Of a stretch of 64,000 bases of DNA, positions 48,545 to 63,937 are shown piece by piece. Source of the stretch: Hoeflea ulvae (GTDB lineage: Bacteria > Pseudomonadota > Alphaproteobacteria > Rhizobiales > Rhizobiaceae); contig NZ_JAOVZQ010000001.1 of NCBI RefSeq assembly GCF_026619435.1, forward strand, positions 1,929,501 through 1,993,500, read 5' to 3'. Under the pieces are notes generated by a model. That model ran no database searches and was not told the origin of the DNA. It saw only the letters and a list, made by a program, of their open reading frames with translations. Each line of letters opens with the position of its first letter. The stretch's first letter is position 1. The position numbers and the translations under genes are program-made.

Positions 48545-48618
48545 TGGGGCGTAGCCAAGTGGTAAGGCAATGGTTTTTGGTACCGTCACCCCTGGTTCGA
48601 ATCCAGGCGCCCCAGCCA
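48545..48618 (+). tRNA. tRNA-Gln (anticodon TTG)
   Basis: A 74-base cloverleaf. The acceptor stem TGGGGCG/CGCCCCA is perfect, discriminator G and CCA are encoded, the D-loop contains AGTGGTAAGG, the anticodon loop TTTTGGT has TTG, and the T-arm is GGTTCGAATCC. The stretch before it (48417-48544) presumably holds its promoter. tRNA 3' ends are frequent integration targets, and the accessory region starts just downstream. Confidence 0.95.
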
Positions 48619-49014: not shown

Positions 49015-49051
49015 TCCCGATAATGGGATTAAATATTCCCGAAATCGGGAA
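49015..49051 (+). promoter_or_regulatory. Tandem TCCC/GGGA palindromes, candidate IclR-regulator operators
   Basis: TTCCCGA-AA-TCGGGAA (49036-49051) is a perfect 7-bp-arm palindrome. TCCC-GATAAT-GGGA (49015-49028) is a weaker copy. They start 21 bases apart, so they face the same side of the helix. The first ends six bases before the IclR start codon and would block transcription or translation initiation. As no other promoter gap exists in the operon, this site probably controls the whole transporter-sulfatase operon. Confidence 0.6.
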
Positions 49052-49056
49052 ATAAG

Positions 49057-49836
49057 ATGAGCGACAACCTGAGCAGAACCCTGATCTTGCTAGAGCACCT
49101 TTCCTCCGCGAAAGCCGAGGGGGTGACCGTGGCACAGCTGGTAGAACGAACGAATCTGGCCAGTTCGACGGTCTATCGTCTGGTTCAGGAGCTGGAGGGG
49201 CTGGGATATCTGCGCAAGGCCAGCGATCGCCGTCTTTTCCCGAAATTCCTGTTCGAGCAGGGCATGAATGTCGGCGGCGTGGATATCGGGCGTCTTACCG
49301 AGGCGTGCCAGTCTATATCCTCGCGGCTGATCGTTGCATCCGAATTCATCGCGCTCAGGCGCGAGAACCTGTTGTGGCACATCGCTGAAGAGCATCCCCA
49401 GCAATCCATCCGCCTGCGCGCCGGTGTCGGATTTGTCCGCGGCGCCTACGAGCTTGACTGCATCACCCGCATGGCGCTGGCGCATTTGCCGATCAGGACG
49501 ATCGAAGCAAACTGGGATGTCGCAGCCTTTTTTGATGTCGGCGTGTCAGGCGGCAAGGTGCCATGGGACGAGGCGCGGGCCAGCGTGGCCGCCGTCGATA
49601 CCAGTGACATGCAATATGACTTGATGGGCAATGCCAAGGGCGTGCGCAGGTTCTGCGTCGCGATCCATGGCACGGGTGGAGAATTCGTCGGGTTGCTGAC
49701 CGCTGCGGAAGCGGCAACGCCCCTGCGAGACGTCGAGGGGCATGTGGCGCAGGTTCGCGCCGTGCTTCTGGAAACCAAAGGCGCCGTGGAGAGCGGCGCA
49801 GGAGCAACAAGCAAGGCGCTGACGCACAACGGCTAG
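49057..49836 (+). CDS. IclR family transcriptional regulator
   Basis: DNA-binding regulator of 259 residues. The N-terminal winged helix-turn-helix (LSRTLILLEHLSSAKAEGV, then NLASSTVYRLVQELEGLGYL) is followed by the IclR effector domain (about residues 85-240). It is the first gene of the operon, 27 bases before the binding-protein gene, so it likely controls the operon and itself through the palindromes directly upstream. The ligand is presumably the imported or desulfated sugar; this is inference. Confidence 0.92.
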   Translation: MSDNLSRTLILLEHLSSAKAEGVTVAQLVERTNLASSTVYRLVQELEGLGYLRKASDRRLFPKFLFEQGMNVGGVDIGRLTEACQSISSRLIVASEFIALRRENLLWHIAEEHPQQSIRLRAGVGFVRGAYELDCITRMALAHLPIRTIEANWDVAAFFDVGVSGGKVPWDEARASVAAVDTSDMQYDLMGNAKGVRRFCVAIHGTGGEFVGLLTAAEAATPLRDVEGHVAQVRAVLLETKGAVESGAGATSKALTHNG

Positions 49837-49863
49837 GCGCGCATTATCACCAGGGAGGATACT

Positions 49864-51132
49864 ATGAAATTCGCACTTTACGGTGCAGTCGCCATGGCGA
49901 CTGCAATGACTGCTTTCGCGCCCGCTGTGGCGGCTGCGCAGGAACTCGTCCTGTCGATCGGCTCACGCGGCTACGGCGGCATGGTCGAACGCAACATCGA
50001 GGCGTTTGAAGCTGCCAACCCCGACACGTCGGTGGAATGGCTCAAAGTTTCGGACGTGCCCGGCGACAGCCGCAAGCTCTATGTGACCGGTCTCACTGCA
50101 AAAAGCCCGACACCGGATGTCTTCGCCATCGATGTGATCTGGGCCGGTGAATTTGCCCAGCGCGGCTGGCTCGAGCCGCTGAACGACTATCTTGGCGAAG
50201 AAACGATTGCAGCCTACAACCCCTCTTTCCTGTCTGCCGCAACGGTGGAGGACAAGGTGTTTGCAGCCCCGTTGTATGTCGACGGCACGCATCTTTTCTA
50301 CCGCTCGGACCTTCTGGAAAAATACGGCATCGCCGTTCCCAAGACCTGGGAAGAAGTGATCTCCGCCTCGAAGATCGTGATGGAGGGGGAGGGCAATCCC
50401 CAGCTCTACGGATTTGTGTCGATGTGGGCCAAGATCGAGGGCCTGTTCATGAACTGGCTTTCCTTCATCAACGGCAATGGCGCCAGCTTCTTTGACGCTG
50501 ATGGCAATGTCGCAGTCAACTCGCCTGAGGCAATCGCGGCGACCCAGACGATGGTCGACATGCTTTATGAAGACAGGATCGTGCCGGATTCGATCCTGAC
50601 CATGCGGCCCGATGATGCCCGCACGCTGTTTCAGCAGGGTCGTGCCGTCTTCCTGATGGTGCAGGACTTCGTCCACGCGCCGCTGAGCGCCGAAGACAGC
50701 CCGGTGGCCGGCAAGTTCGATTTTACCCGCAACCCCTATTTCGAAGGCCATGAAGATGCGCATTCGACCGCAATGGGCGGCTGGCTCCTGGCGGTCAACG
50801 CCAATTCGGAGCACAAGGAGGAAGCTGCAAAGCTGGTGGAATACTTCACCTCCTACGCGGCTCAGCTGGCTGCCGCCATCGACGAGAACCGGGCCCCGGG
50901 CCGCACCGACGTCTATGCCGCACCGGAAATGACGGAAGCCGCGCTGATCCAGAAGTTCGGCGAAGACTATGCCGTCGGCGTGGTGCGCCCATCGGCAATA
51001 ACAGGCAGCCTCTATCCGCGCGTGTCCGAAGTCATGCAGACTGAAGTCACCAATGCGCTGCACCGTCAGAAGACGGTTGAGGAAGCCCTCAATGACGCTG
51101 CTGCCGAAGTCAACTCGATCCTCGGCAAGTAA
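49864..51132 (+). CDS. ABC transporter sugar-binding protein (family 1 solute-binding)
   Basis: Periplasmic binding protein of 422 residues. The signal peptide (to about residue 26, FAPAVAAAQE) is followed by the SBP_bac_1 fold: LVLSIGSRGYGGMVERNIEAF, DVFAIDVIWAGEFAQRGWLEPLND, PLYVDGTHLFYRSDLLEKYG and the late GRTDVYAAPEM. This is the MalE/UgpB type used for saccharides. GGGAGGA precedes the ATG. A terminator-like stem-loop follows, which would favour higher expression of this gene than of the permeases. Confidence 0.93.
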   Translation: MKFALYGAVAMATAMTAFAPAVAAAQELVLSIGSRGYGGMVERNIEAFEAANPDTSVEWLKVSDVPGDSRKLYVTGLTAKSPTPDVFAIDVIWAGEFAQRGWLEPLNDYLGEETIAAYNPSFLSAATVEDKVFAAPLYVDGTHLFYRSDLLEKYGIAVPKTWEEVISASKIVMEGEGNPQLYGFVSMWAKIEGLFMNWLSFINGNGASFFDADGNVAVNSPEAIAATQTMVDMLYEDRIVPDSILTMRPDDARTLFQQGRAVFLMVQDFVHAPLSAEDSPVAGKFDFTRNPYFEGHEDAHSTAMGGWLLAVNANSEHKEEAAKLVEYFTSYAAQLAAAIDENRAPGRTDVYAAPEMTEAALIQKFGEDYAVGVVRPSAITGSLYPRVSEVMQTEVTNALHRQKTVEEALNDAAAEVNSILGK

Positions 51133-51142
51133 GACCTGATAC

Positions 51143-51174
51143 CCCGTGCGGTCGCTTCGGTCCGCACGGGTTTT
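51143..51174 (+). terminator. Intra-operon attenuating terminator after the binding-protein gene
   Basis: CCCGTGCGG (51143-51151) pairs perfectly with CCGCACGGG (51162-51170) and is followed by TTTTCCCC. It sits between the binding protein and first permease of one operon, so it is probably partial and sets subunit stoichiometry. Confidence 0.7.
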
Positions 51175-51196
51175 CCCCAAAACGCAGGAGGTGGGC

Positions 51197-52087
51197 ATGT
51201 CCCGCACCATGAGCTTGGAACGGCGCACGGCGCTGACCGGCATCGGCTTTGTTACGCCTACCATCTTGATCATTGCGCTGATCCTGATCTACCCGATCAT
51301 CCAGTCGGTGGTACTCAGCTTCGGACAATCGAGCATTGACGGGTCGCAGCCCTATCAGTTTGTCGGCCTGAAGCATTACGCCGCCCTGATGGGGGATGGC
51401 AGGTTCTGGAACGCGCTCGGCGTGACCTTCACCTTCACGGCACTTTCCATTCCGCTGGAACTGGGGCTCGGCATCGGCCTGGCCTTGCTGATGAACGAGA
51501 GTTTCAAGGGCAAGGGACTTGCGCGCCTCGCGGTGCTGTTTCCCTGGGCATTGCCGACAGCGCTCAACACGCTGATCTGGCGTTGGATGTACAATTCCGA
51601 CTACGGCCTTTTCAACGGGATAGCCTTGCAGAGCGGGCTTGTCGACCGCCCGATCAACTTTCTCGGCGACGAAATTCTGGCAATGGGATCGATGGTCGTG
51701 GTCGCGGTCTGGAAGACCAGTTCCTTCATGGCGCTGATCATTCTCGCCGGGCTGCAGTCCATCCCGCGCGACCTGTTCGAGGCCGGCCGCATGGACGGCA
51801 TGAGCAAGTGGCAGGAATTCACCCAGATCACATTGCCATTGCTGAAAGGCCCGATCCTGGTGGCGCTGATCATCCGCTCGATGGATGCGCTGCGCACATT
51901 CGAGCTGCCTTTCAACCTGACCGATGGCGGGCCGGTGAATGCCACCGAGAGCCTGTCGCTCTACGCCTACAAGGTGATCTTCGATTTCCTCGATTTCAAC
52001 TTCGGCGCAGCCGTCGTCGTGGTTCAGTTCCTTGTGATTTTCGCCATGAGCCTGATCTACGTCTTCGCACTCCAGAACAAGGACTGA
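51197..52087 (+). CDS. Sugar ABC transporter permease (MalF/UgpA type)
   Basis: Inner-membrane permease of 296 residues with six helices. The ATPase-docking EAA loop is DLFEAGRMDGMSKWQEFTQI (EAxxMDGxxxxxxFxxITLP pattern). ATG 51197 has AGGAGGTG 5 bases upstream, and an in-frame start 51 bases earlier lies in the terminator stem and is rejected. It forms the membrane channel with the next gene. Confidence 0.94.
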   Translation: MSRTMSLERRTALTGIGFVTPTILIIALILIYPIIQSVVLSFGQSSIDGSQPYQFVGLKHYAALMGDGRFWNALGVTFTFTALSIPLELGLGIGLALLMNESFKGKGLARLAVLFPWALPTALNTLIWRWMYNSDYGLFNGIALQSGLVDRPINFLGDEILAMGSMVVVAVWKTSSFMALIILAGLQSIPRDLFEAGRMDGMSKWQEFTQITLPLLKGPILVALIIRSMDALRTFELPFNLTDGGPVNATESLSLYAYKVIFDFLDFNFGAAVVVVQFLVIFAMSLIYVFALQNKD

Positions 52088-52091
52088 GCCC

Positions 52092-52916
52092 ATGCAGAAA
52101 CGACCGCGCTACGGCCTTTATGCAATTGTCTCGCTCTCGGTGCTGATCTCGTTCTTTCCGATCGTCTGGCTGATCCTGACCTCGTTCAAGAACACCGCCG
52201 GGATCTATGCCTGGCCGCCGCAATACTGGCCCGATCCCTTCACGCTGGACAACTATATCTCGATTTTCACCAATTCACCCGAGCTGCTGCGTTACATTCT
52301 CAACAGCTTTATCGTCGGGGCAGGCTGCACGGCTATCACGCTGCTGCTCGGCGGCCTGGCGGCCTATGCCCTGTCGCGGCTGCGGCTGCGCTTTGCCGGC
52401 ATGCTGATGGTCGGCATTCTTGCTGTGTCGATGTTCCCGCCGGTCTCGCTGCTGCCGTCATTGTTCCAGAATTTCCTCAATCTCGGGCTGCTCAACACCT
52501 ATACCGGGCTGATTCTCGCCCATGCCGGGCTGTTCCTGCCGTTTTCGGTGTGGATGCTGGCGAGCTATTTCGCCACCTTGCCGGTCGAGATCGAGGAAGC
52601 CGCCCGCATGGACGGCATGGGTTTTGTGCGCATTTTCCTGACCATCGTTCTGCCCCTGTCATGGCCGGGTTTCGTCGCCACCGGGCTGATCGTCTTCATC
52701 TTCTCGTGGAACGAATTCCCGCTCTCGCTGGTGCTGATGACCCAGAATGCCATGCGAACGGCCCCGGTCGGCATCTCGCTCTATCCCGGCGAATACGCCT
52801 TCCCGTGGGAGACGATCTCGACGGCGACGGTCCTGGCGATCATCCCGGTGCTGATCATCACCGCAATTTTTCAAAAACAGATTGTCGGCGGCCTGACCGC
52901 TGGCGCCGGCAAGTGA
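52092..52916 (+). CDS. Sugar ABC transporter permease (MalG/UgpE type)
   Basis: Second permease, 274 residues with six helices. The EAA loop is EIEEAARMDGMGFVRIFLTI and the C-terminus (AIFQKQIVGGLTAGAGK) is the MalG-type ending. It starts four bases after the first permease gene. The short spacing shows one transcription unit with the ATPase gene that follows. Confidence 0.94.
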   Translation: MQKRPRYGLYAIVSLSVLISFFPIVWLILTSFKNTAGIYAWPPQYWPDPFTLDNYISIFTNSPELLRYILNSFIVGAGCTAITLLLGGLAAYALSRLRLRFAGMLMVGILAVSMFPPVSLLPSLFQNFLNLGLLNTYTGLILAHAGLFLPFSVWMLASYFATLPVEIEEAARMDGMGFVRIFLTIVLPLSWPGFVATGLIVFIFSWNEFPLSLVLMTQNAMRTAPVGISLYPGEYAFPWETISTATVLAIIPVLIITAIFQKQIVGGLTAGAGK

Positions 52917-52925
52917 GGTCCTGAC

Positions 52926-54020
52926 ATGGCAAGCGTAACACTCAAGCAGATCGGCAAGTCCTACGGCGCGGTCACCGCTGTGGAACAGTTCGACCTCGAC
53001 ATCGCTGACGGCGAATTCCTGGTGCTGCTCGGCCCCTCCGGCTGCGGGAAATCCACCACCTTGCGCATGATCGCAGGGCTCGAGAGCATCACCACCGGCG
53101 ACCTGATGATCGGCGGCACGCGGGTCAATGACACCGATCCCAAGGACCGCGGCGTGGCGATGGTGTTTCAGAACTATGCGCTTTATCCGCACAAGTCGGT
53201 GTTTGACAACATGGCCATGGCGCTCAAGCTGCAGAAGATGCCGAAGGCCGAAATTGCTAAGCGGGTCAATGATGTGGCCGACATGCTCGGCCTGACACCC
53301 TATCTCGAGCGAAAGCCCGCCGCCCTGTCAGGCGGCCAGCGGCAGCGCGTCGCCATCGGCCGCGCCATCGTGCGCACGCCGGAAGTGTTCCTGTTCGATG
53401 AGCCGCTGTCAAACCTCGATGCGCAGCTGCGCGTCAAGATGCGGATGGAGCTGCAGGAACTGCATGAGCGACTGGGGGTGACCTCGATCTATGTCACCCA
53501 TGACCAGGTCGAGGCGATGACGCTCGCCGACAGGATCGTCATCCTCGATCGCGGCAGGGTGGCGCAGATCGGCACGCCGCGCGAAGTCTATGAGCAGCCG
53601 GCCACCCGGTTCGTCGCCAGCTTCATCGGCAGCCCGGCGATGAATTTCATGCCGGCGGAACGGGCAGGCACGGACTGGAAGATCACCGGCACGGACCTGG
53701 TGATCCCCGGGTTCGGTCAGCTTGCCACAGAGGCAGCGGCTCTGACGCTCGGCCTGCGCCCGGAACATATCGAGGTGCTGCCTGCCGACACCGCACCCGG
53801 CGACCCCTGGGTGTTCGATGCCACGGTCAAACTGGCGGAATTGCTTGGCGCTGATGCGCTTCTCAATCTTTCGGTAAACGGTCAGCCGTTTCTGGCGCGC
53901 GTTGGCGGCACGGATTTCCCGCAGGCCGGAGAGACCGTGCGCATTCGTGTCGACCCGGCACGGCTTCATGCCTTTGATCCGGAAACGGAACTGACCGTCG
54001 CCCGCGCGGCACAGCATTAG
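52926..54020 (+). CDS. Sugar ABC transporter ATP-binding protein (MalK/UgpC type)
   Basis: A 364-residue ATPase energising the importer. Walker A GPSGCGKSTT, Q-loop NYALYPHKSVFDN, signature LSGGQRQRVAIGRA, Walker B VFLFDEPLSNLDAQ and switch His VTHDQVEAM are all intact. A C-terminal TOBE regulatory domain follows (from about residue 235). MalK-type ATPases often serve several importers. It starts nine bases after the permease gene; sulfatase and isomerase genes follow. Confidence 0.95.
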   Translation: MASVTLKQIGKSYGAVTAVEQFDLDIADGEFLVLLGPSGCGKSTTLRMIAGLESITTGDLMIGGTRVNDTDPKDRGVAMVFQNYALYPHKSVFDNMAMALKLQKMPKAEIAKRVNDVADMLGLTPYLERKPAALSGGQRQRVAIGRAIVRTPEVFLFDEPLSNLDAQLRVKMRMELQELHERLGVTSIYVTHDQVEAMTLADRIVILDRGRVAQIGTPREVYEQPATRFVASFIGSPAMNFMPAERAGTDWKITGTDLVIPGFGQLATEAAALTLGLRPEHIEVLPADTAPGDPWVFDATVKLAELLGADALLNLSVNGQPFLARVGGTDFPQAGETVRIRVDPARLHAFDPETELTVARAAQH

Positions 54021-54030
54021 GACCGCCAAC

Positions 54031-55542
54031 ATGACCAAACGACCCAATATCCTTTTCATCATGGCCGATGACCACGCATCCAAGGCAATCAGCTGCTACG
54101 GAGCGGGCATCAACTCGACACCAAATCTCGACCGGATCGCCATCGAAGGCATGCGGCTGAACCATTGCTATGTCACCAACTCGATCTGCACGCCCAGCCG
54201 TGCGGCGATCCTCACCGGCACCTATAACCACGTCAACAATGTCACCACGCTGGCAACGCCGATCAACAACCGCGGACCCAATGTCGCCAAGCACCTGCGC
54301 GCCAGCGGTTACCAGACCGCGCTGATCGGCAAGTGGCATCTGGGCGAGGGCAAGGCGCATGAGCCGACCGGGTTCGATTTCTGGTCGGTGCTGCCGGGGC
54401 AGGGCGAGTATTTCGATCCCTACATGATCGAGATGGGCGAAGAGATCGAGGTGCCGGGCTACGCCACCGACATCATTACCGACAAGAGCCTCGACTGGCT
54501 CAAGTCCTGCGATCCGGACAAGCCGTTTTTCCTGATGTGCCACCACAAGGCGCCGCACCGGGAATGGGAGCCGCATCCCAAGAACCGCTCGCTCTACACC
54601 GATGACATCAAGGTGCCCGAGACCTTCGACGATGATTACCGCAACCGTGCCCGCGCCGCCGCCGAAGCCAAGATGCGGATCAAGGACGACATGAAATATA
54701 TCGATCTCGGGCTGGTGCAACCCGAGGGGGGCGCCGAGGTCGGCGAGCGGGTGAAGCCCGGCGACATCAACCGCAAGATCCCCAATCCCGAAGACGTCTC
54801 CAACCTGCGGCTGATCGATCGCGATACGGGCGAGGTGTTCACCTTCTCCAGCAGCCGCGAGCTCAATCATTTCAAGTATCAGCGCTACCTGAAGCGCTAT
54901 TTGCGGACGATCCACTCGGTGGATGAAAGCGTCGGGCGGCTGCTTGACTGGCTTGACGAGACCGGACAGGCTGACAACACCATTGTCATCTATACCTCCG
55001 ATCAGGGCTTCTTCCTGGGAGAGCACGGCTGGTTCGACAAGCGCTTCATGTATGAGGAATCCTTCCAGATGCCGTTGCTGGTGCGCTATCCGGCGGCAAT
55101 CCCGGCAGGCAGCGTCTGTGACGACATATTATGCAATGTCGACTTCGCCCCGACCTTTCTGGATTTTGCCGGTCAGGTCGTGCCCAACTACATGCAGGGC
55201 AGATCAGCCCGGCCGCTGCTGGAAGGCAAGACCCCGCCAGACTGGCCGCAACTGGCCTATCACCGCTACTGGATGCACCGCGACCCCGACCACAATGCCT
55301 ATTCGCATTACGGCGTGCGCAATCAGCGCTACAAGCTGATCTACTGGTACAATGAGGGCTACGATCTGCCGGGGACCAACCATGGCGGACAGGACCGGGA
55401 GTGGGAACTGTTTGATTGCCAGAAGGATCCGCTTGAATTGTTCAACGTCATCGATGATCCTGACTATGCCGACATCCGCGTTGCCTTGCAGCGGGAGCTT
55501 GACATGAAGATGGCCGAGATCGGTGACGATCCTGCGCATTAG
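54031..55542 (+). CDS. Cys-type sulfatase (S1 family), cytoplasmic
   Basis: Sulfatase of 503 residues hydrolysing sulfate esters. The N-terminus MTKRPNILFIMADDHASKAI is the metal-binding start of the S1 fold with no signal peptide, so the enzyme should act in the cytoplasm. The activation motif CTPSRAAILTG (CxPSR) carries the cysteine that must become formylglycine. Further blocks are GKWHLGEG, CHHKAPH and IVIYTSDQGFFLGEHGW. It lies ten bases after the ATPase gene, so its substrate is probably what the importer brings in. The sugar cannot be identified from sequence. Confidence 0.93.
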   Translation: MTKRPNILFIMADDHASKAISCYGAGINSTPNLDRIAIEGMRLNHCYVTNSICTPSRAAILTGTYNHVNNVTTLATPINNRGPNVAKHLRASGYQTALIGKWHLGEGKAHEPTGFDFWSVLPGQGEYFDPYMIEMGEEIEVPGYATDIITDKSLDWLKSCDPDKPFFLMCHHKAPHREWEPHPKNRSLYTDDIKVPETFDDDYRNRARAAAEAKMRIKDDMKYIDLGLVQPEGGAEVGERVKPGDINRKIPNPEDVSNLRLIDRDTGEVFTFSSSRELNHFKYQRYLKRYLRTIHSVDESVGRLLDWLDETGQADNTIVIYTSDQGFFLGEHGWFDKRFMYEESFQMPLLVRYPAAIPAGSVCDDILCNVDFAPTFLDFAGQVVPNYMQGRSARPLLEGKTPPDWPQLAYHRYWMHRDPDHNAYSHYGVRNQRYKLIYWYNEGYDLPGTNHGGQDREWELFDCQKDPLELFNVIDDPDYADIRVALQRELDMKMAEIGDDPAH

Positions 55543-55553
55543 GAGACACCCCA

Positions 55554-56786
55554 TTGTCTGAAAGACCGCCTTTGGCCAGCGAAACCTGTGAGGGGAACTG
55601 GTGTGACGACCCGGTGCACCGGGACTGGCTCCGCCGCGATGCAGTGAAGCAACTCGACTTCTTCCGGCCAAGCCTGCGCAAGGACGGTGGCTTCGATATT
55701 CTCAATTGGGATGGCACACCGCGCGCCGGCGTGCCGCTGGAACTGCACATCACCACCAGGCTGGTCCACTCCTATGCGCTGGGTGCCGCCTTTGGCGACA
55801 ACGGCGCCGCGGCGATCATCGATGCCGGCATGGAGCGTCTGTGGAACGGCCATCGCGACACCACCCATGGCGGCTATGTCTGGTCCATTGACGGCAATAT
55901 AGTGGCAGATGCGACGAAGCTGGCCTATGGCCATGTCTTCGTGCTGTTGGCCGGCGCCAACGCCAGGCAGGCGGGGCATCCCGATGCGGACCGGCTGATT
56001 GATGACGTGACAGCGGTGATCGACCGGCATTTCTGGGATGACGACAAGGGATTGCTGCGCGAGGAGTTCAATCAGGACTGGAGTACATTTTCGACCTATC
56101 GCGGCATGAATGCCAACATGCATGGGGTCGAGGCCCTGCTGGCTGCCTTCGAGGCAACCGGACGCGAGATCTACCTTGACCGCGCCGGCCGGATCCTCGC
56201 CTTTTTCATAGGCCGGATCGCCCCCGACCATCACTGGCGGATCCCTGAGCATTACACCGAGGACTGGCAGCTCGACCGCGCCTATGCCGGCAATCCGATG
56301 TTCCGGCCGGCGGGCACCACGCCGGGGCATTCGCTGGAGCTTGGCCGTCTGCTGCTGCAGCACTGGGATCTTGCGGGACGGCCTGAGAACCAGTCCCCCG
56401 AACGGGCGCGCAAGCTGATCGAGCGGGCGCTTGACGATGCCTGGCTGGCCGAAGGCGGCTTGTGCTACACGCTGGATTATTCCGGTGAAGTGGCTATCCG
56501 GGACCGCTACTGGTGGCCTGTCGCCGAAGCGATCGGGGCGATCTCGACACTGCAACGGATTGACCCGCGAGACAGCGATGAGAGGTGGTACCGCAAACTC
56601 TGGCGGTTTGCCGACGGGCATTTCATCGACCACAAGAACGGCGGCTGGTATCCCGAACTTGACGAGGCGGGCGCTCCGGTCGAGCGCCAGTTCCTCGGCA
56701 AGCCGGACATCTACCACTCGCTGCAGGCTGTCATCCTGCCACTGGTTGGGGCGCCTTCGGGGATATTTCCGCTTTTGAAGCGCTGA
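55554..56786 (+). CDS. AGE-superfamily sugar isomerase/epimerase (mannose or sulfoquinovose isomerase-like)
   Basis: A 410-residue (alpha/alpha)6-barrel enzyme of the N-acylglucosamine 2-epimerase superfamily. Active-site blocks: HGGYVWSIDG, GMNANMHGVEALLAAFEATG, GHSLELGRLLL, DRYWWPVAEAI, GGWYPELDEAG and GKPDIYHSLQAVI. The last, with PDxYHxLQA, resembles bacterial D-mannose isomerase and YihS more than the renin-binding epimerases, so aldose-ketose isomerisation is expected. TTG 55554 start with AGGAG 8 bases upstream. It is the last gene of the operon. Confidence 0.88.
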   Translation: MSERPPLASETCEGNWCDDPVHRDWLRRDAVKQLDFFRPSLRKDGGFDILNWDGTPRAGVPLELHITTRLVHSYALGAAFGDNGAAAIIDAGMERLWNGHRDTTHGGYVWSIDGNIVADATKLAYGHVFVLLAGANARQAGHPDADRLIDDVTAVIDRHFWDDDKGLLREEFNQDWSTFSTYRGMNANMHGVEALLAAFEATGREIYLDRAGRILAFFIGRIAPDHHWRIPEHYTEDWQLDRAYAGNPMFRPAGTTPGHSLELGRLLLQHWDLAGRPENQSPERARKLIERALDDAWLAEGGLCYTLDYSGEVAIRDRYWWPVAEAIGAISTLQRIDPRDSDERWYRKLWRFADGHFIDHKNGGWYPELDEAGAPVERQFLGKPDIYHSLQAVILPLVGAPSGIFPLLKR

Positions 56787-56803: not shown

Positions 56804-56886
56804 GTTCTTCAGAACATTTCATTATCCGAATTAGCCTTGGGGAATTGGCCGATTTCGTTAGAGTAACTTCCGTAGTTCCGAATAAT
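56804..56886 (+). promoter_or_regulatory. Promoter region of the first LysR gene with several symmetric elements
   Basis: GTTCT-TC-AGAAC (56804-56815) is a small palindrome. ATTATCCGAA (56821-56830) is mirrored by TTCCGAATAAT (56876-56886). GAATTAGC (56828-56835) recurs before the DAO-GcvT gene at 57958-57965. These are plausible sites for the LysR protein encoded next. Confidence 0.35.
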
Positions 56887-56898
56887 CGGGTGCGTGAG

Positions 56899-57873
56899 AT
56901 GACCGATCTGATTGTCAATGCTGTTTCCCTGCGCGGACTTGAGCTGCTCGAAGAGCTCAGCCGTGCCGGTTCCATGCAGGTCGCCGCGCGCAATCTTGGC
57001 CTGTCGGCGCCGGCGGCATCGCAGCAATTGAAGAACCTCGAAACCGCACTGGGCCAGAAACTGGTCGAACACGGCCGGCGGCCGTTGGAGCTGAGCTCTG
57101 GCGGGCTCGCCTATCTGGCCCATGTGCGCGCGGCGCTTCTGCACTTGCGTCAGGGTGCTGCCGAACTGTCACTGATGGATCTGCGCACGGTCCGCTCTTT
57201 GCGGATTGGCATTATCGACGATTTTGACAGCGAGGTAACGCCGCGTCTTGCGGTCGCTCTCGCCAAGGTACTGACGACTGCCGAGCTGAGCCTGATGACG
57301 ACGCCTTCGTCGCGCACGCATGAGGATGTCGCTGCACGGCACATCGATCTCGGCATTGCCGCCCAACCGCTTGAACTGCCCGAAGGCGTCACGGAAACCC
57401 CGGTCTTGCGCGATCCCTTTGTGCTGGCGGTGCCGCGCGGATGTCTGAGCGCGCCGCCGGCAAGCATCGAGGCTCTCAAGGACCTGCAGTTCCTGCGCTA
57501 TGAAAGGAGCCAGCTCCTGGGCCGCCAGATCGCAGCCCATCTGGCCCGGCTGCGGCTTGCGCCGGAAGGCCGGATCGAAGTAGACAGCAATCAGGCGATC
57601 TTCGGACTGATTGCCAGCGGAGCGGGATGGGCGATATCAACGCCCGTCGGATTTCTCCGTGCCCGGCGTTTTCACGACCGGGTCGACATCTTTCCGCTGC
57701 CATTTTCGGGATTTGCCCGCACCATCTCCTTGTTTCACCGGCAGGAATGGATGCCGGACACCGCCGGCATCATTGCCGGAAGCCTGCGCGGCATCCTGCG
57801 CGAACAGGTGGTGGCGCCCGGCCGCGCGGCGATCCCGTGGATCGGGGAGGCCTTGGCGGTCATTGAAAGCTGA
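56899..57873 (+). CDS. LysR family transcriptional regulator
   Basis: A 324-residue regulator. The winged helix-turn-helix is ELSRAGSMQVAARNLGLSAPAASQQLKNLE, followed by a periplasmic-binding-like effector domain from about residue 90 (RSLRIGIIDDFDSEVTPRLA). ATG 56899 is chosen because the LysR homology begins right after it, although the frame is open to 56845. It precedes the DAO-GcvT oxidoreductase on the same strand and shares an upstream sequence box with it, so that gene is the most likely target. Confidence 0.9.
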   Translation: MTDLIVNAVSLRGLELLEELSRAGSMQVAARNLGLSAPAASQQLKNLETALGQKLVEHGRRPLELSSGGLAYLAHVRAALLHLRQGAAELSLMDLRTVRSLRIGIIDDFDSEVTPRLAVALAKVLTTAELSLMTTPSSRTHEDVAARHIDLGIAAQPLELPEGVTETPVLRDPFVLAVPRGCLSAPPASIEALKDLQFLRYERSQLLGRQIAAHLARLRLAPEGRIEVDSNQAIFGLIASGAGWAISTPVGFLRARRFHDRVDIFPLPFSGFARTISLFHRQEWMPDTAGIIAGSLRGILREQVVAPGRAAIPWIGEALAVIES

Positions 57874-57943
57874 CATAGCTGCTCGGCGGAGTGGCCATGG
57901 TCCGCGCAATGCAAGCATCCAATGTCGGGAACGTAAAAGTCCC

Positions 57944-57986
57944 AATTCCAAAAAACGGAATTAGCGCATGAAAGATTGATCTTTCA
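57944..57986 (+). promoter_or_regulatory. 18-bp palindrome and AATTCC inverted repeat upstream of the DAO-GcvT gene
   Basis: TGAAAGAT-TG-ATCTTTCA (57969-57986) is a perfect palindrome with 8-bp arms. Just upstream, AATTCC (57944-57949) and GGAATT (57957-57962) form a second inverted repeat. Both lie in the 164-base gap between the LysR stop and the oxidoreductase start, whose start codon is 52 bases further on. Confidence 0.6.
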
Positions 57987-58037
57987 CTCCGATTGCCTCT
58001 CAATCTGATGACACTGTCTCTCAGGCCAGAGGTATCC

Positions 58038-60449
58038 ATGAAAGCTCAGACTCGCGTCGTGGTGATCGGCGGCGGCATCGCCGGATGTTCCACCTTGTAC
58101 CATCTCACCCAGGAGGGTTGGACCGACGTGGTGTTGGTCGAACGCAACGAGCTGACGTCGGGAACGACCTGGCATTCGGCGGCACAGGTCACCAATTTCG
58201 GAATGACACAGACGATGGTCGGGCTGAAAAGCCATTCGATCCGGCTCTACAAGGAAATGGCCGACGATCCGGATTATCCGATCAACTATCACCACGGCGA
58301 CGGCGGCCTCCGGCTGGCGAATTCGGAGGTCACCATGGACGGCTATCGCCACTTCGCCAGTGTGGCCAAGGGGATGGGCGTCGATTTCGAAATCATCGAT
58401 GCGGCCGAATCCGCCCGCCGTCACCCGCTGATCACGACCGACCGGTTGATCGGCGCGCTTTGGGATCCGATGGATGGCGACATCGACCCGGCGCAGTTGT
58501 GTCAGGCGCTGGCGCGGCGCGCCCGCAAAGCCGGTGCCGAAGTGTATCGCAACACACCGGTGACCGGGCTGACCCAGCACAAGGATGACAGCTGGACGGT
58601 GCACACCGAACAGGGCGACATCGCCTGCGAAATCGTCGTCAATGCCTGCGGCTATCGTGTCAACGAAGTGGGCGCGATGATGGGGGTGCACCACCCGGTG
58701 ATGTCGATGGAACATCAGTATTTCCTGACAGAGCCGATCCAGCAGATCATCGACCACGGCCGCAGGGTGCCGTTGCTGCGTTGTCCCATTGATGACTTCT
58801 ATTCCCGGCAGGAAAAACAGGGGCTGCTGGTCGGTTTTTATGAGCAGGATTGCCGGACCTGGGGCATGGACGGGATCGATCCGGGATTCGTCAATGCGCT
58901 TTGCCCCAGTGACACGGATCGGGTGCTGCCGGTGCTTGAAAACGTGTTCAAGCGCATGCCGGTGCTGGAGGAAGTCGGCATTCACACCATCGTCAACGGG
59001 CCGATCACCTATACGATCGACGGAGCGCCGCTCGTCGGCCCGATCCCCGGCAAACGCAATGCCTTTTGCATCATCGGCCTGCGCGCCGGCCTCGGCGAAG
59101 GCGGCGGCCATGGCTGGCTGCTGGCGCAGCAGATTGTCCATGGCGAGGCGGAATACGATACATGGGTAATTGATCCGCGCCGGTTCACCGGCCATGCCAA
59201 TGTCGAACTCTGTGCGCTCAAGGCCATCGAGGACTATCAGAACGAATTCCGGTTTCACCTTCCACACGAACACCGGCCCGCGGGGCGTCCGATGAAGACG
59301 ACGCCGCTGACGCCGATCCTTGCGGCGGAAGGCGCCGAATTCGGGGTCGTCAACGGATGGGAGCGCGTTGCCTATATCAAGCCTTCACCGGATTTTCACG
59401 AGAGCCACGGATTTCGCTTCAATGAAACCTTCGAAGTCGTCGCCGACGAGGTGAAAGCCGTTCAAAGCGGCGTCGGCATGACAGAGATCAGTGGTTTCAA
59501 CAGGTTTGAGATCACCGGACCGGGAGCCAGGGATTGGCTCGATACGATGGTGTGCGGAAGATTGACGCGGAAAGCCGGACGGGTGGGCTTGGCCTATCTG
59601 CTCAACGATCACGGCAACATCAAAGCCGAAGCTACGCTTGCGCACCTTGATGATCAGACCACCTGGTATGGATCGGCAGCAGCCTCCGAATACCACGATA
59701 TGGATTGGCTGACGCAGCACCTTCCCGAGGACGGATCCGTCGCAATCCGGTCACTGACCAACGAATACACCATCCTCGTGCTTGCCGGACCGAAATCACG
59801 TGATGTGCTCGCTGCAGTGTCACGCGGCGACTGGTCGGCTGCGGCATTCCCCTGGCTTTCGGTGCGCCGGGCGTTCATCGGCATAGCACCCGCGGTCGTG
59901 CTGTCGGTGAGCTTTTCGGGCGAACTCGCCTATGAAATCCATGTCCCCAACGCGCAGTTGCATGCAGCCTATCTGGCCTTGCGCAAGGCGGGCGAAGCAC
60001 ACGGATTGCGTCTGTTCGGATCCCATGCCGTCGAATCCATGCGGCTGGAAAAGGGATACCGGCATTGGAAGGCCGATCTGGTGACCGAATTTTCCCCGCT
60101 TGAAGCCAATCTTTCGCGCTTCGTCAAACTCGACAAGCCGGATTTTGTCGGCAAGGCCGCGTTGGAAGCCTCCTCGCCGCGGCGCGCATTTGTCTCCATG
60201 GTGCTCGACTGCAGCCATGCTCCGGCACAGGGCGGCGACAGCATCATATCCGATGGCCGCCTTGTCGGCACTGTCACGTCCGCGGGCTGGGGCCACAGGG
60301 TCGGACACAACATTGCCATGGGCTTTGTCGACACAGGCTTCGCCGAGATTGGAACCAGCCTGCAGATCGAAGTCATCGGCGCGCCGGTTGCGGCGCAAGT
60401 CGTTGCCGAGTGTCTCTATGACCCGGAATACACCCTGGTCCGCGGCTGA
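58038..60449 (+). CDS. FAD-dependent DAO-GcvT oxidoreductase, dimethylglycine/sarcosine dehydrogenase-like
   Basis: An 803-residue enzyme with an N-terminal FAD domain (VVVIGGGIAGCSTLYHL, residues about 6-25), a middle FAO domain and a C-terminal folate-binding GcvT domain (from about residue 420). The histidine that binds FAD covalently in this family is present in LTSGTTWHSAAQ. Such enzymes oxidise N-methyl groups and pass the one-carbon unit to tetrahydrofolate. The substrate is unknown. ATG 58038 has GAGG upstream; the frame is open to 57993. It is convergent with the formylglycine-generating enzyme gene. Confidence 0.9.
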   Translation: MKAQTRVVVIGGGIAGCSTLYHLTQEGWTDVVLVERNELTSGTTWHSAAQVTNFGMTQTMVGLKSHSIRLYKEMADDPDYPINYHHGDGGLRLANSEVTMDGYRHFASVAKGMGVDFEIIDAAESARRHPLITTDRLIGALWDPMDGDIDPAQLCQALARRARKAGAEVYRNTPVTGLTQHKDDSWTVHTEQGDIACEIVVNACGYRVNEVGAMMGVHHPVMSMEHQYFLTEPIQQIIDHGRRVPLLRCPIDDFYSRQEKQGLLVGFYEQDCRTWGMDGIDPGFVNALCPSDTDRVLPVLENVFKRMPVLEEVGIHTIVNGPITYTIDGAPLVGPIPGKRNAFCIIGLRAGLGEGGGHGWLLAQQIVHGEAEYDTWVIDPRRFTGHANVELCALKAIEDYQNEFRFHLPHEHRPAGRPMKTTPLTPILAAEGAEFGVVNGWERVAYIKPSPDFHESHGFRFNETFEVVADEVKAVQSGVGMTEISGFNRFEITGPGARDWLDTMVCGRLTRKAGRVGLAYLLNDHGNIKAEATLAHLDDQTTWYGSAAASEYHDMDWLTQHLPEDGSVAIRSLTNEYTILVLAGPKSRDVLAAVSRGDWSAAAFPWLSVRRAFIGIAPAVVLSVSFSGELAYEIHVPNAQLHAAYLALRKAGEAHGLRLFGSHAVESMRLEKGYRHWKADLVTEFSPLEANLSRFVKLDKPDFVGKAALEASSPRRAFVSMVLDCSHAPAQGGDSIISDGRLVGTVTSAGWGHRVGHNIAMGFVDTGFAEIGTSLQIEVIGAPVAAQVVAECLYDPEYTLVRG

Positions 60450-60481: not shown

Positions 60482-61339
60482 TCAATCGCGATCGAAGGCC
60501 AGCCGGAACCCGGCATTGGAGGTTCCGTTGTCGGCCTGTTTTCCGGAGCGCGCGGCAATCCGGTAGCGCCAGCAGACATTGTGGTGGCACAGGAATGATC
60601 CACCCTTGAGAACACGTTCATTCTCGCGCAGCGCAACCGCATTTCGCCTTTTCGCATCCGCGCTCAGCGACCGGATTCGCAAAAGATCTTCGCACCATTC
60701 CCAGACATTGCCGGCCATGTTGTAGATGCCGGCCGCATTGGGCGGGAAGCTGTGGGCAGGGGAGGTGCCGTAATACCCGTCAGCCATCAGGTTGCGGTCC
60801 GGGAAGCTACCCTGCCAGATGTTGCAGTGAACGGCGTTGGTGTCACTTGGTTCATCGTCTCCCCAGGGATAGCGGGCCTTGTGCGGGCCGCCGCGTGCGG
60901 CATGCTCCCATTCGGATTCCGTGGGCAGGCGTCCACCGGCCCATGCGCCATAGGCCCGGGCATCATTCCACGACACGTGAACCACCGGGTGGTCCGGGGT
61001 GGACCGCCAATCGCTTTCCGGCCCCAAGGGTCTGCGCCAGAACGCACCCTCCATTGCGTTCCACCAGGGCATTCCTTCGGGCTGGGGGCCGCCCGTCTGG
61101 TCAAGCAATCCGCGAAACACAAAGGACCAGCCATAGCGTTCTGCATCAGTGATGTATCCGGTCTCTTCAACGAAGATGGCAAACTGGCTGAAGGTGATGG
61201 TGTGTCTGGTGATACCAAAGGGTCGCAGCCTGACCTTGCGAGCCGGGCTTTCGCCATCCGCCTTGATCTCTGGACGGTCGGTGCCGATGTGGCTCACGCC
61301 ACCATCGAACCAGGCTATGTCATCAGACGATATTTTCAC
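60482..61339 (-). CDS. Formylglycine-generating enzyme (sulfatase-activating)
   Basis: Copper-dependent oxidase that converts the sulfatase active-site cysteine to formylglycine. About 285 residues. The catalytic cysteine pair is present in GGSFLCHHNVCWRYR, which separates true FGE from EgtB-like or other SUMF1-domain relatives. Other blocks: RLPTESEWEHAARGG and GIYNMAGNVWEWCED. No signal peptide, matching the cytoplasmic sulfatase at 54031. GTG 61339 is preferred (AAAGGG 7 bases upstream); ATG 61390 or an earlier start would include a palindrome. Convergent with the DAO-GcvT gene, 32 bases apart. Confidence 0.93.
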   Translation of the reverse strand: MKISSDDIAWFDGGVSHIGTDRPEIKADGESPARKVRLRPFGITRHTITFSQFAIFVEETGYITDAERYGWSFVFRGLLDQTGGPQPEGMPWWNAMEGAFWRRPLGPESDWRSTPDHPVVHVSWNDARAYGAWAGGRLPTESEWEHAARGGPHKARYPWGDDEPSDTNAVHCNIWQGSFPDRNLMADGYYGTSPAHSFPPNAAGIYNMAGNVWEWCEDLLRIRSLSADAKRRNAVALRENERVLKGGSFLCHHNVCWRYRIAARSGKQADNGTSNAGFRLAFDRD

Positions 61340-61388
61340 ACTGGCGCCCTTTCGTTCCGCTTTCGCACTTAGGCCGACACCCGGCATC

Positions 61389-61410
61389 ATGCAAATGCAT
61401 TTTGATTTGC
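61389..61410 (-). promoter_or_regulatory. Palindrome upstream of the formylglycine-generating enzyme gene
   Basis: ATGCA-AA-TGCAT (61389-61400) is a perfect palindrome, and GCAAAT (61391-61396) is also repeated inversely as ATTTGC (61405-61410). It lies 50-71 bases before the preferred start. Possibly an operator. Confidence 0.4.
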
Positions 61411-61554
61411 GATTATCCGGATCCGACAGGCTCCCCATGCCGCAGGCGGCCCGGATCAAAGTCCGGCGGCACCATCATCGGCGAATGTGCGGGAGAGCCA
61501 CGGTACCGCCGGAGCATCCGGCATCGGCCGCGCGATGTGAAATCATCGGCAGTT

Positions 61555-62590: not shown

Positions 62591-63937
62591 ATGAAACGAT
62601 TTTCACCGATATACCGGTCCGCCGCGCTGTCCGCGATGGCCGCTATCTGCCTCACGACGGCTTCCGTGAGTTATGCTGACGAACTGGCGCCAATCAATAT
62701 TGTCATCAACCAGTCGCCATGGCTTGATGGATTTGCCGGCCTTGTCGACCTTTACGAGTCCGAAACCGGCAACACGGTCACGCTTGACGTGAACCCCTAT
62801 GCCGGCAGTCTCGAAAAGCAGCGCAATGCGGTTCGTTCCGAGCAGAGCGAGTATGACATCCTGATCGTCAACGGCATTTTCTACCCCGAAATGTATCACG
62901 GTGGATTTCTCGAGCCGCTGAAGAATGTTGACCCGGACTTCAAGCTCGATCCTCAGATCTACACCTATGACGACACCCTTTGCTATGATGCCGTCAACAA
63001 GACGGTCAACTGCGAAACCGGTGACCTGCTGACGATTCCGGTCAATCCCAACATCACGCTGATGTTCTACCGCAAGGATCTGTACGAGCAGAACGGACTG
63101 AAGATCCCCGAAACCTGGGACGAGTTGATGGCCAATGCCAAGGCCCTGCACAATCCGCCGGAAATGATCGGCATGATGCAGCGCAGCGCACGCGCCACCA
63201 TTTCCATCACCTGGGACTACTGGCCCTATCTGATCAGCCATGGTGGCTCATTGTTCCAGGATGAGGGCAACGGCGATTTCTCCGTCACCATCAACAGCCC
63301 GGAAGCGCGCAAGGCGCTGGAAACCTATGTGGCCTTTTCAAAGGAAGTCGGACCGGAAAACCCGGCCAGCATGGAGCAGGGTGATCTGATCCAGTACCTG
63401 GTAACCGGTCGTGCAGCCCATGCGGTTCTGCCGGCAGCGGCCCAGTCGCAGATGGATGATCCCAACAAGTCCATCGTGGCGGGCAAGATCGGATACATGA
63501 CCATTCCGCATGCGCCCGGCCATCCTTCCGCGCCCGCACTCGGCCATTGGCTGGGCGGCATTCCGAAGAACATTGCACAGGATCACAAGGTCGCAGCCCT
63601 TGCGTTTCTCGACTGGTTCCAGAAGCCTGAGACCCAGATCGCCTATGCTGAAATGGGCGGCTCGCCTGTCAGCGCAGCGGCCTATGAATCCGATTTCGCC
63701 GACAAGCCGGAAAACCGCTACATGCTGACCATGCGCACGGCCTCGCCGACCGCACGTCGTCTGTGGACGATCCCCGAGGGGTCCGAAATCGTGGCAGTCC
63801 TCGAAGTCGGGCTCAACCGTGTGGTTGCGGGCGAAATCTCGGTCGTGGATTCGCTCAACAACATGGCTGCTGAGATCGAGAAGATCATGGTCGATGCCGG
63901 TTACAAGACCGGTCGTCTCCCCGATCTGGCAAACTGA
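62591..63937 (+). CDS. ABC transporter solute-binding protein (family 1)
   Basis: Periplasmic binding protein of 448 residues. The signal peptide runs to about residue 28 (TTASVSYADE). The SBP_bac_1 fold is seen in INIVINQSPWLDGFAGLVDLYE, YDILIVNGIFYPEMYHGGFLEPL and LGHWLGGIPKNIAQDHK. Its permease and ATPase genes would lie past the right edge. ATG 62591 has GGAGGG upstream; the frame is open to 62468. The ligand is unknown; regulation by the divergent LysR is inferred. The last 63 bases of the window show no gene. Confidence 0.92.
   Translation: MKRFSPIYRSAALSAMAAICLTTASVSYADELAPINIVINQSPWLDGFAGLVDLYESETGNTVTLDVNPYAGSLEKQRNAVRSEQSEYDILIVNGIFYPEMYHGGFLEPLKNVDPDFKLDPQIYTYDDTLCYDAVNKTVNCETGDLLTIPVNPNITLMFYRKDLYEQNGLKIPETWDELMANAKALHNPPEMIGMMQRSARATISITWDYWPYLISHGGSLFQDEGNGDFSVTINSPEARKALETYVAFSKEVGPENPASMEQGDLIQYLVTGRAAHAVLPAAAQSQMDDPNKSIVAGKIGYMTIPHAPGHPSAPALGHWLGGIPKNIAQDHKVAALAFLDWFQKPETQIAYAEMGGSPVSAAAYESDFADKPENRYMLTMRTASPTARRLWTIPEGSEIVAVLEVGLNRVVAGEISVVDSLNNMAAEIEKIMVDAGYKTGRLPDLAN

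Follow-up and report, generated by a model that had tools for sequence, protein, structure and literature searches.

Can a small sulfated sugar be carried into a bacterial cell intact and lose its sulfate only there? The question is raised by an operon of seven genes in Hoeflea ulvae (the host), located in a 64,000-nt stretch of contig NZ_JAOVZQ010000001.1 (assembly GCF_026619435.1; this whole stretch is the window, to which the coordinates refer), where the genes of an importer are directly followed by the gene of a sulfatase. In algae, plants and animals, sulfate esters shield sugars from microbial attack; among carbohydrate sulfatases, those known best act outside the cytoplasm. The original prediction for this locus was that an intact sulfated sugar is imported, desulfated inside the cell and, as the free aldose, isomerised to a ketose. 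Judged from sequence comparisons, the statement that the operon serves import-first utilisation of a small sulfated sugar, this last step (assigned to an enzyme of the AGE superfamily) included, has a probability of roughly 0.6; that the importer and the intracellular sulfatase act on one and the same sugar sulfate seems highly probable.

In the favoured explanation, a MalEFGK-type importer would take up the sugar sulfate unaltered. In the cytoplasm an S1_11-like sulfatase, activated by the maturase FGE encoded on the same genomic island, would then strip off a sulfate; a 6-O-sulfate on a sugar of D-gluco or L-galacto configuration is the most likely target. The AGE-type enzyme, apparently added at the operon end in this host, would most likely convert the freed hexose to a ketose for central metabolism, and the IclR protein would control the operon via a palindrome before its own gene. 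The identity of the sugar, the order of the steps, the AGE reaction and the ligand of the regulator are the parts of this scheme that we infer.

The Operon and Its Sulfatase

The seven genes, all on the + strand at 49057–56786, encode an IclR-type regulator (49057..49836; PF09339 HTH_IclR, 41.2 bits), a sugar-type solute-binding protein (49864..51132; PF01547 SBP_bac_1), a MalF-like permease (51197..52087, alternative start 51146; PF00528 BPD_transp_1), a MalG-like permease (52092..52916; likewise PF00528 BPD_transp_1), a MalK/UgpC-like ATPase (52926..54020; PF00005 ABC_tran, PF08402 TOBE and PF17912 OB_MalK, with NF008653 above its cut-off), the sulfatase (54031..55542; PF00884 and SGSH_C) and the AGE-superfamily enzyme (55554, TTG, or 55614, GTG, to 56786; PF07221 GlcNAc_2-epim, 336.8 bits). 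With the starts 51197 and 55554 for the MalF and AGE genes, the gaps between them are 27, 64, 4, 9, 10 and 11 bases. Gene calls and Pfam matches confirmed the co-directional, tightly spaced set of families that had been proposed, and the distance of ten bases between the ATPase and the sulfatase (54020 to 54031) was exact. An SBP_bac_1 protein, two BPD_transp_1 permeases and an ATPase with MalK-type C-terminal domains identify the importer as a member of the CUT1 (MalEFGK-type) class; the top solved relatives of its binding protein are maltose/trehalose-binding proteins, with SmoF at rank 10.

The absence of a signal peptide from the sulfatase, on which the idea of intracellular desulfation depends, was checked at the N-terminus for all in-frame starts. 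The conserved core begins at most five residues in from any of them and there is no in-frame start further upstream, therefore no signal peptide is possible. The protein is a formylglycine-dependent S1 sulfatase by its PF00884 score (183.5 bits versus a cut-off of 25) and by the motif CxPSR at C53 (C53-TPSR). Its solved relatives include the GlcNAc-6-sulfatase BT4656 (450.5 bits), a mucin-desulfating sulfatase (386.3 bits) and the exo-L-galactose-6-sulfatase 7lha (340 bits). It is one of six PF00884 matches in the host genome, and of 8,000 scored candidates at least 3,227 were relatives at E ≤ 1e-150.

Residues D336, R338 and H421, which from the alignment with BT4656 and its residue numbers we take to be the sugar triad of S1_11, occupy columns that do not vary among the 85 sulfatases aligned (86, less one partial sequence). 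With these columns present and its nearest characterised enzymes in S1_11, the sulfatase resembles the S1_11 enzymes that take off a 6-O-sulfate. According to parts of a review that covers this subfamily, its triad consists of a His plus Asp/Arg, aquatic members apply the same triad to L-galactose, the region recognising C2 is variable, and BT4656-type sulfatases have GlcNAc-6-sulfate as their substrate (PMC10154612). The C2-recognition stretch of the operon sulfatase aligns poorly with that of BT4656, hence GlcNAc is not implied as its substrate; our best guess at the target is a 6-O-sulfate on a D-gluco- or L-galacto-configured sugar.

The Importer–Sulfatase Pair in Other Genomes

Whether importer and sulfatase belong together was followed with the binding protein as the probe (E ≤ 1e-120), which does not presuppose a sulfatase. 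Orthologues are rare: they were present in 3 of 199 and 3 of 394 genomes of the family (overlapping samples, the same three genomes), in 1 of 385 genomes of the class (the host itself) and in one of the 72,556 records of a plasmid collection. All four distinct copies, those of the window, of genomes G008 (locus L094) and G002 (L095, where the set is only partly visible at a contig end) and of a Marinovum algicola plasmid (L137), adjoin this sulfatase, and the same importer–sulfatase set is carried by two loci, L023 and L024, that were located via the sulfatase. Outside the host, these five loci have the IclR and importer genes divergent from the sulfatase gene. The recurrence of the pair in other genera argues that the grouping of the genes is beyond chance, and it gives good comparative support to the proposed uptake of an intact sulfated sugar and its desulfation inside the cell. 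Plasmids carry such sulfatases as well (14 records), and each of the five inspected had an adjoining importer operon, of the CUT1, Tau/Ssu or Opp type. Bacteria with related combinations of importer and sulfatase come from the sea, from soil and from roots.

A Branch of Leaderless Sulfatases

The comparison was extended to 86 sulfatases (80 loci, five family loci and the window), of which 56 are leaderless and 30 have a leader; 19 of the 30 leaders were called by a hydrophobicity rule and 11 by eye (Tat-like, lipoprotein-like or extended N-termini), and the placing of L036 and L054 is debatable. A CUT1, Tau/Ssu or TRAP permease lies within five genes of 34 of the 56 leaderless sulfatases, window included, versus none of 26 secreted ones, after exclusion of four loci of the secreted group that had fewer than three neighbours. 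An importer gene is directly adjacent on the same strand in 15 of the 56 (again with the window) versus 64 of 615 other genes of the same loci (Fisher p = 0.0016), and in none of the 30 secreted cases. These adjacency counts are probably too low because the gene caller at times takes the antisense frame in GC-rich loci (e.g., L023, L025 and L087, and the annotated sulfatase of L137).

In rhizobia and actinobacteria a frequent order is ROK regulator, Tau/Ssu-type permease, ATPase, binding protein and sulfatase. The binding protein of this arrangement, with taurine- and sulfonate-binding proteins as its top solved relatives (62.7 and 57.6 bits), formed a sequence cluster present in 17 of 51 sulfatase-centred loci, which were selected after the first matches had been seen. 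Four loci of this kind (L025, L029, L030 and L065) come from strains named Root (554, 1334, 1203 and 4), which may hint at a substrate from plant roots; a glucosinolate or a Nod factor would be a purely speculative candidate. On plasmid pMM170 of Martelella mediterranea (L138:1553-12116), a CUT1 importer, a Gfo/Idh/MocA oxidoreductase, a ThuA-like protein and three consecutive sulfatases form one co-directional run, suggestive of a multiply sulfated sugar.

Since these sulfatases go with importers from several unrelated classes, what is conserved seems to be desulfation after import. A wider claim, to which we give somewhat less than even odds, is that the large cytoplasmic S1_11-like branch of Pseudomonadota, Actinomycetota and Bacillota might be a general import-first route for small sulfated sugars. 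Its sulfatase would have been re-paired with CUT1, Tau/Ssu, TRAP and Opp importers and with varied downstream enzymes (AGE here, a DUF4432 protein on the Marinovum plasmid). It would travel by plasmid and, in one case or more, by tRNA island, accompanied by FGE and sulfonate genes.

The Downstream Enzyme and Rival Explanations

Several observations weigh against the reading of the seven genes as one import-first pathway. The nearest marine relatives of the operon sulfatase mostly lack an adjacent importer, and in the tree the operon sulfatase clusters with them (support 97), apart from the sulfatases of the importer-sharing loci; the operon may therefore be a re-pairing, which weakens simple vertical conservation while function is still favoured. 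On the sulfatase tree, sequences with and without a leader are strongly separated (2 changes versus a shuffled mean of 25), so that cellular location and phylum are confounded. The AGE gene stands beside the sulfatase in none of the 85 other loci (1 of 86 with the window), and the complete seven-gene set, sought there, was thus not found again. G002 and G008 have the same importer–sulfatase pair and no AGE match at E ≤ 1e-80, a match that 51 of 199 family genomes possess; from the other side, AGE neighbourhoods of 15–20 kb in 10 of 50 other AGE-bearing genomes contained no match to two S1 sulfatase queries. The conserved co-occurrence expected in the original prediction was therefore found for importer and sulfatase and not for the AGE enzyme. 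Homologous loci with sulfatase and isomerase unlinked to the importer had been named there as speaking against the pathway, and such loci exist for the isomerase, not for the sulfatase.

The AGE enzyme itself lies on the YihS/mannose-isomerase side of its superfamily. YihS is its nearest solved structure (238.4 bits), and the positions aligned with R55, H176, H248, E251 and H383 of YihS are conserved. Its score against the D-mannose isomerase model NF051846, 310.1 bits, is below the 600-bit cut-off of this equivalog and far above the 38.2 bits for GlcNAc 2-epimerases; the structure matches likewise favour isomerases. At both positions aligned with Q362 and Q379 of YihS, which we take to be its sulfonate contacts, the enzyme has proline, which suits a neutral hexose, that is, the sugar after desulfation. 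On the Marinovum plasmid the gene that follows the sulfatase encodes a DUF4432 protein, presumably related to aldose 1-epimerases, and the downstream sugar enzyme looks exchangeable between loci. We put the chance that the AGE enzyme acts on the freed hexose at even: family, position and residues make the proposed isomerisation to a ketose plausible, and the missing linkage elsewhere counts against it.

The rival that survives best, though unlikely, keeps import and desulfation and has the AGE enzyme isomerise the still-sulfated sugar first, 2-epimerise GlcNAc, or serve another imported sugar. The best solved relative of the enzyme, YihS, does act on a sulfosugar, according to part of one account (PMC9594981), and the GlcNAc-6-sulfate specificity of BT4656-type sulfatases fits the second variant. 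In two of the ten AGE neighbourhoods, close AGE relatives end another CUT1 operon that has no sulfatase (L131:3433-10664 and L132:3300-10708); there a GntR-like regulator and a PLP enzyme of Cys/Met metabolism come first, perhaps for a sulfur-linked sugar. The two prolines, however, speak against a sulfated substrate, and the preference of the profiles for isomerases speaks against GlcNAc 2-epimerisation.

It is improbable that the operon serves sulfur scavenging, with sulfate from esters as the main gain and the carbon skeleton incidental. Related sulfatases are paired with Tau/Ssu-type importers, and atsA of P. aeruginosa is induced by sulfur starvation, as part of one report has it (PMC12581299). 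The operon importer, however, is of the CUT1 type, and a sugar enzyme stands at the operon end. Moreover, the regulator types, IclR here and ROK in the Tau/Ssu-type loci, are carbon-responsive rather than CysB-like. That the seven genes have no common substrate, or that the sulfatase cleaves something other than a sugar sulfate, e.g., a phosphonate ester, is very improbable: importers are indeed dense in these genomes (the 64 of 615 above), but several genera have the pair, in some loci co-linear and in others divergent, and phosphonate monoester hydrolases match the sulfatase far less well than S1_11 enzymes do (122 versus 450 bits).

The Regulator and a Candidate Operator

A palindrome, ATTCCCGAAATCGGGAAA, lies at 49035..49052, just before the IclR gene, and is the candidate operator of the IclR protein. 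The pre-IclR regions of six loci (the window, L094, L095, L137, L023 and L024) have the palindrome ATTMYCRHAWWYRRGARW in common. Its palindromic information reaches 18.0, whereas 60 Markov-resampled sets averaged 10.1 (sd 0.45) and did not exceed 11.5; common descent of the loci may be part of the reason for this conservation. A scan for consensus promoters gave one match versus 2.3 in shuffles, i.e., no excess.

The Maturase and the Island

An S1 sulfatase needs its formylglycine made, and the host has one gene for this, the sole PF03781 match of its genome (241 bits), located 3.7 kb beyond the operon on the opposite strand (60482..61459, exact start uncertain). The FGE has a cysteine pair within GGSFLCHHNVC, presumably the catalytic one, and FGE matches were present in nine of nine other genomes examined. 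Between the AGE and FGE genes, 56845-60449 encodes a LysR regulator and a fused DAO/GCV_T protein (dimethylglycine- or sarcosine-dehydrogenase-like).

Operon and FGE are part of an island, the left edge of which is a tRNA-Gln gene (TTG; 48545..48618, + strand, called with ARAGORN), just past which the synteny with the same genus ends. Four of 17 other genomes of the genus were compared at this tRNA. In three of them (G793, G642 and G726) DNA matching the host from its genome position 2009344 or 2009355 onward starts 53–225 bases past the tRNA, and in the host about 31.2 kb lie between the tRNA and this shared DNA; in the fourth (G046) the DNA after the tRNA matches nothing in the host stretches compared. 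A second edge was sought as an exact copy of at least 18 bases of the tRNA 3′ end, and none was found in the host stretches searched. Of the other genomes of the genus, the seven listed all lack the binding protein, and FGE occurs at more than 50% identity in 1 of the 17.

At 62636..63937 (+ strand, start uncertain) the gene of a further binding protein opens a second operon on the island, which continues past the window (L099:1705-6908) with MalF, MalG, a DUF4432 protein, an S1 sulfatase and an ATPase. The importer is of the CUT1 class, the sulfatase is of the CMPAR type, and the DUF4432 gene lies between permease and sulfatase. Together with L103:3872-10624, the host thus has two further importer–sulfatase operons of one type. 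The Marinovum plasmid and the loci L025, L028 and L035 have the importer of the second operon near the first sulfatase; all of these except L025 have the second sulfatase as well.

Just beyond the window and still on the island, L099:8382-17147 encodes a TRAP transporter, a DHPS-dehydrogenase homologue (705.7 bits to 8wwe versus 264.8 for the best histidinol dehydrogenase), two dehydrogenases, a SAF-domain protein, a galactarate-dehydratase-like protein and a YeiH-family protein. The SAF-domain and galactarate-dehydratase-like pair is arranged like SuyA and SuyB, and the stretch probably serves sulfonate catabolism. As the operon, FGE, the second importer–sulfatase operon and the sulfonate (DHPS) genes lie together, the whole may be called an organosulfur island.

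Comparison with Known Systems

Import before desulfation is not new. In Streptobacillus moniliformis an ABC importer (Smon0120-0123) takes up intact sulfated chondroitin disaccharides; their desulfation by the sulfatase of the cluster (Smon0126) is predicted to be cytoplasmic, with sugar-processing enzymes to follow; unlike the operon, this cluster is described, in the part of the source available, with lyases and a GH88 hydrolase for disaccharides of host polysaccharides (PMC5430744). By Pfam, none of the seven operon genes encodes a polysaccharide lyase or GH88 hydrolase. Bifidobacterium breve grows on GlcNAc-6-sulfate, a 6-O-sulfated sugar, with a transporter gene beside its sulfatase gene, but the transporter is annotated as glucose/fructose-type and the maturase is AtsB (Fe-S), compared with an ABC importer and FGE in the host (PMC6045583, in part). 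Choline-O-sulfate is imported by BetT and cleaved by BetC, according to a portion of another paper (PMC12442346).

The exported, Bacteroidota enzymes BT4656, BT3177 and 7lha share with the operon sulfatase the fold family, the formylglycine motif and the His/Asp/Arg triad, but they act on polymer-derived sugars and differ in the C2-recognition region. The B. breve sulfatase reportedly is cytoplasmic, like that of the operon. In the AtsRBCA system of Pseudomonas, an ABC importer likewise serves a cytoplasmic sulfatase, but the importer is of the Tau/Ssu type, the substrates are aryl sulfates and the regulation is by sulfur; it is the 17 related loci with a Tau/Ssu-type importer that it resembles, not the operon with its CUT1 importer. 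A sulfoquinovose pathway was considered for the similarity to YihS, which shares family and catalytic positions with the AGE enzyme, and to SmoF, a CUT1 binding protein for a sulfur-bearing sugar. It was put low: the sulfonate is held by a C–S bond that a sulfatase cannot cut, a sulfatase is not needed there, and the presumed sulfonate contacts are absent from the AGE enzyme. No description of the gene set or of the leaderless branch was found in the open literature, most subscription papers being outside its coverage. The opinion that no pathway with exactly this set had been described thus held for the set, but the type of pathway has its precedent in Streptobacillus (PMC5430744, as far as its available part goes).

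Meaning

With the regulator and its candidate operator, the importer, the sulfatase and its maturase, and a candidate downstream enzyme all on one island, the defined operon offers a means of finding the sugar. A branch of sulfatases that act on imported sugars would mean a further route, one of scavenging, for the sulfated mono- and disaccharides left behind by polymer degraders. If the wider claim for the branch is true, some of the turnover of sulfated sugars now ascribed to exported sulfatases would occur inside cells that never degrade the polymer.

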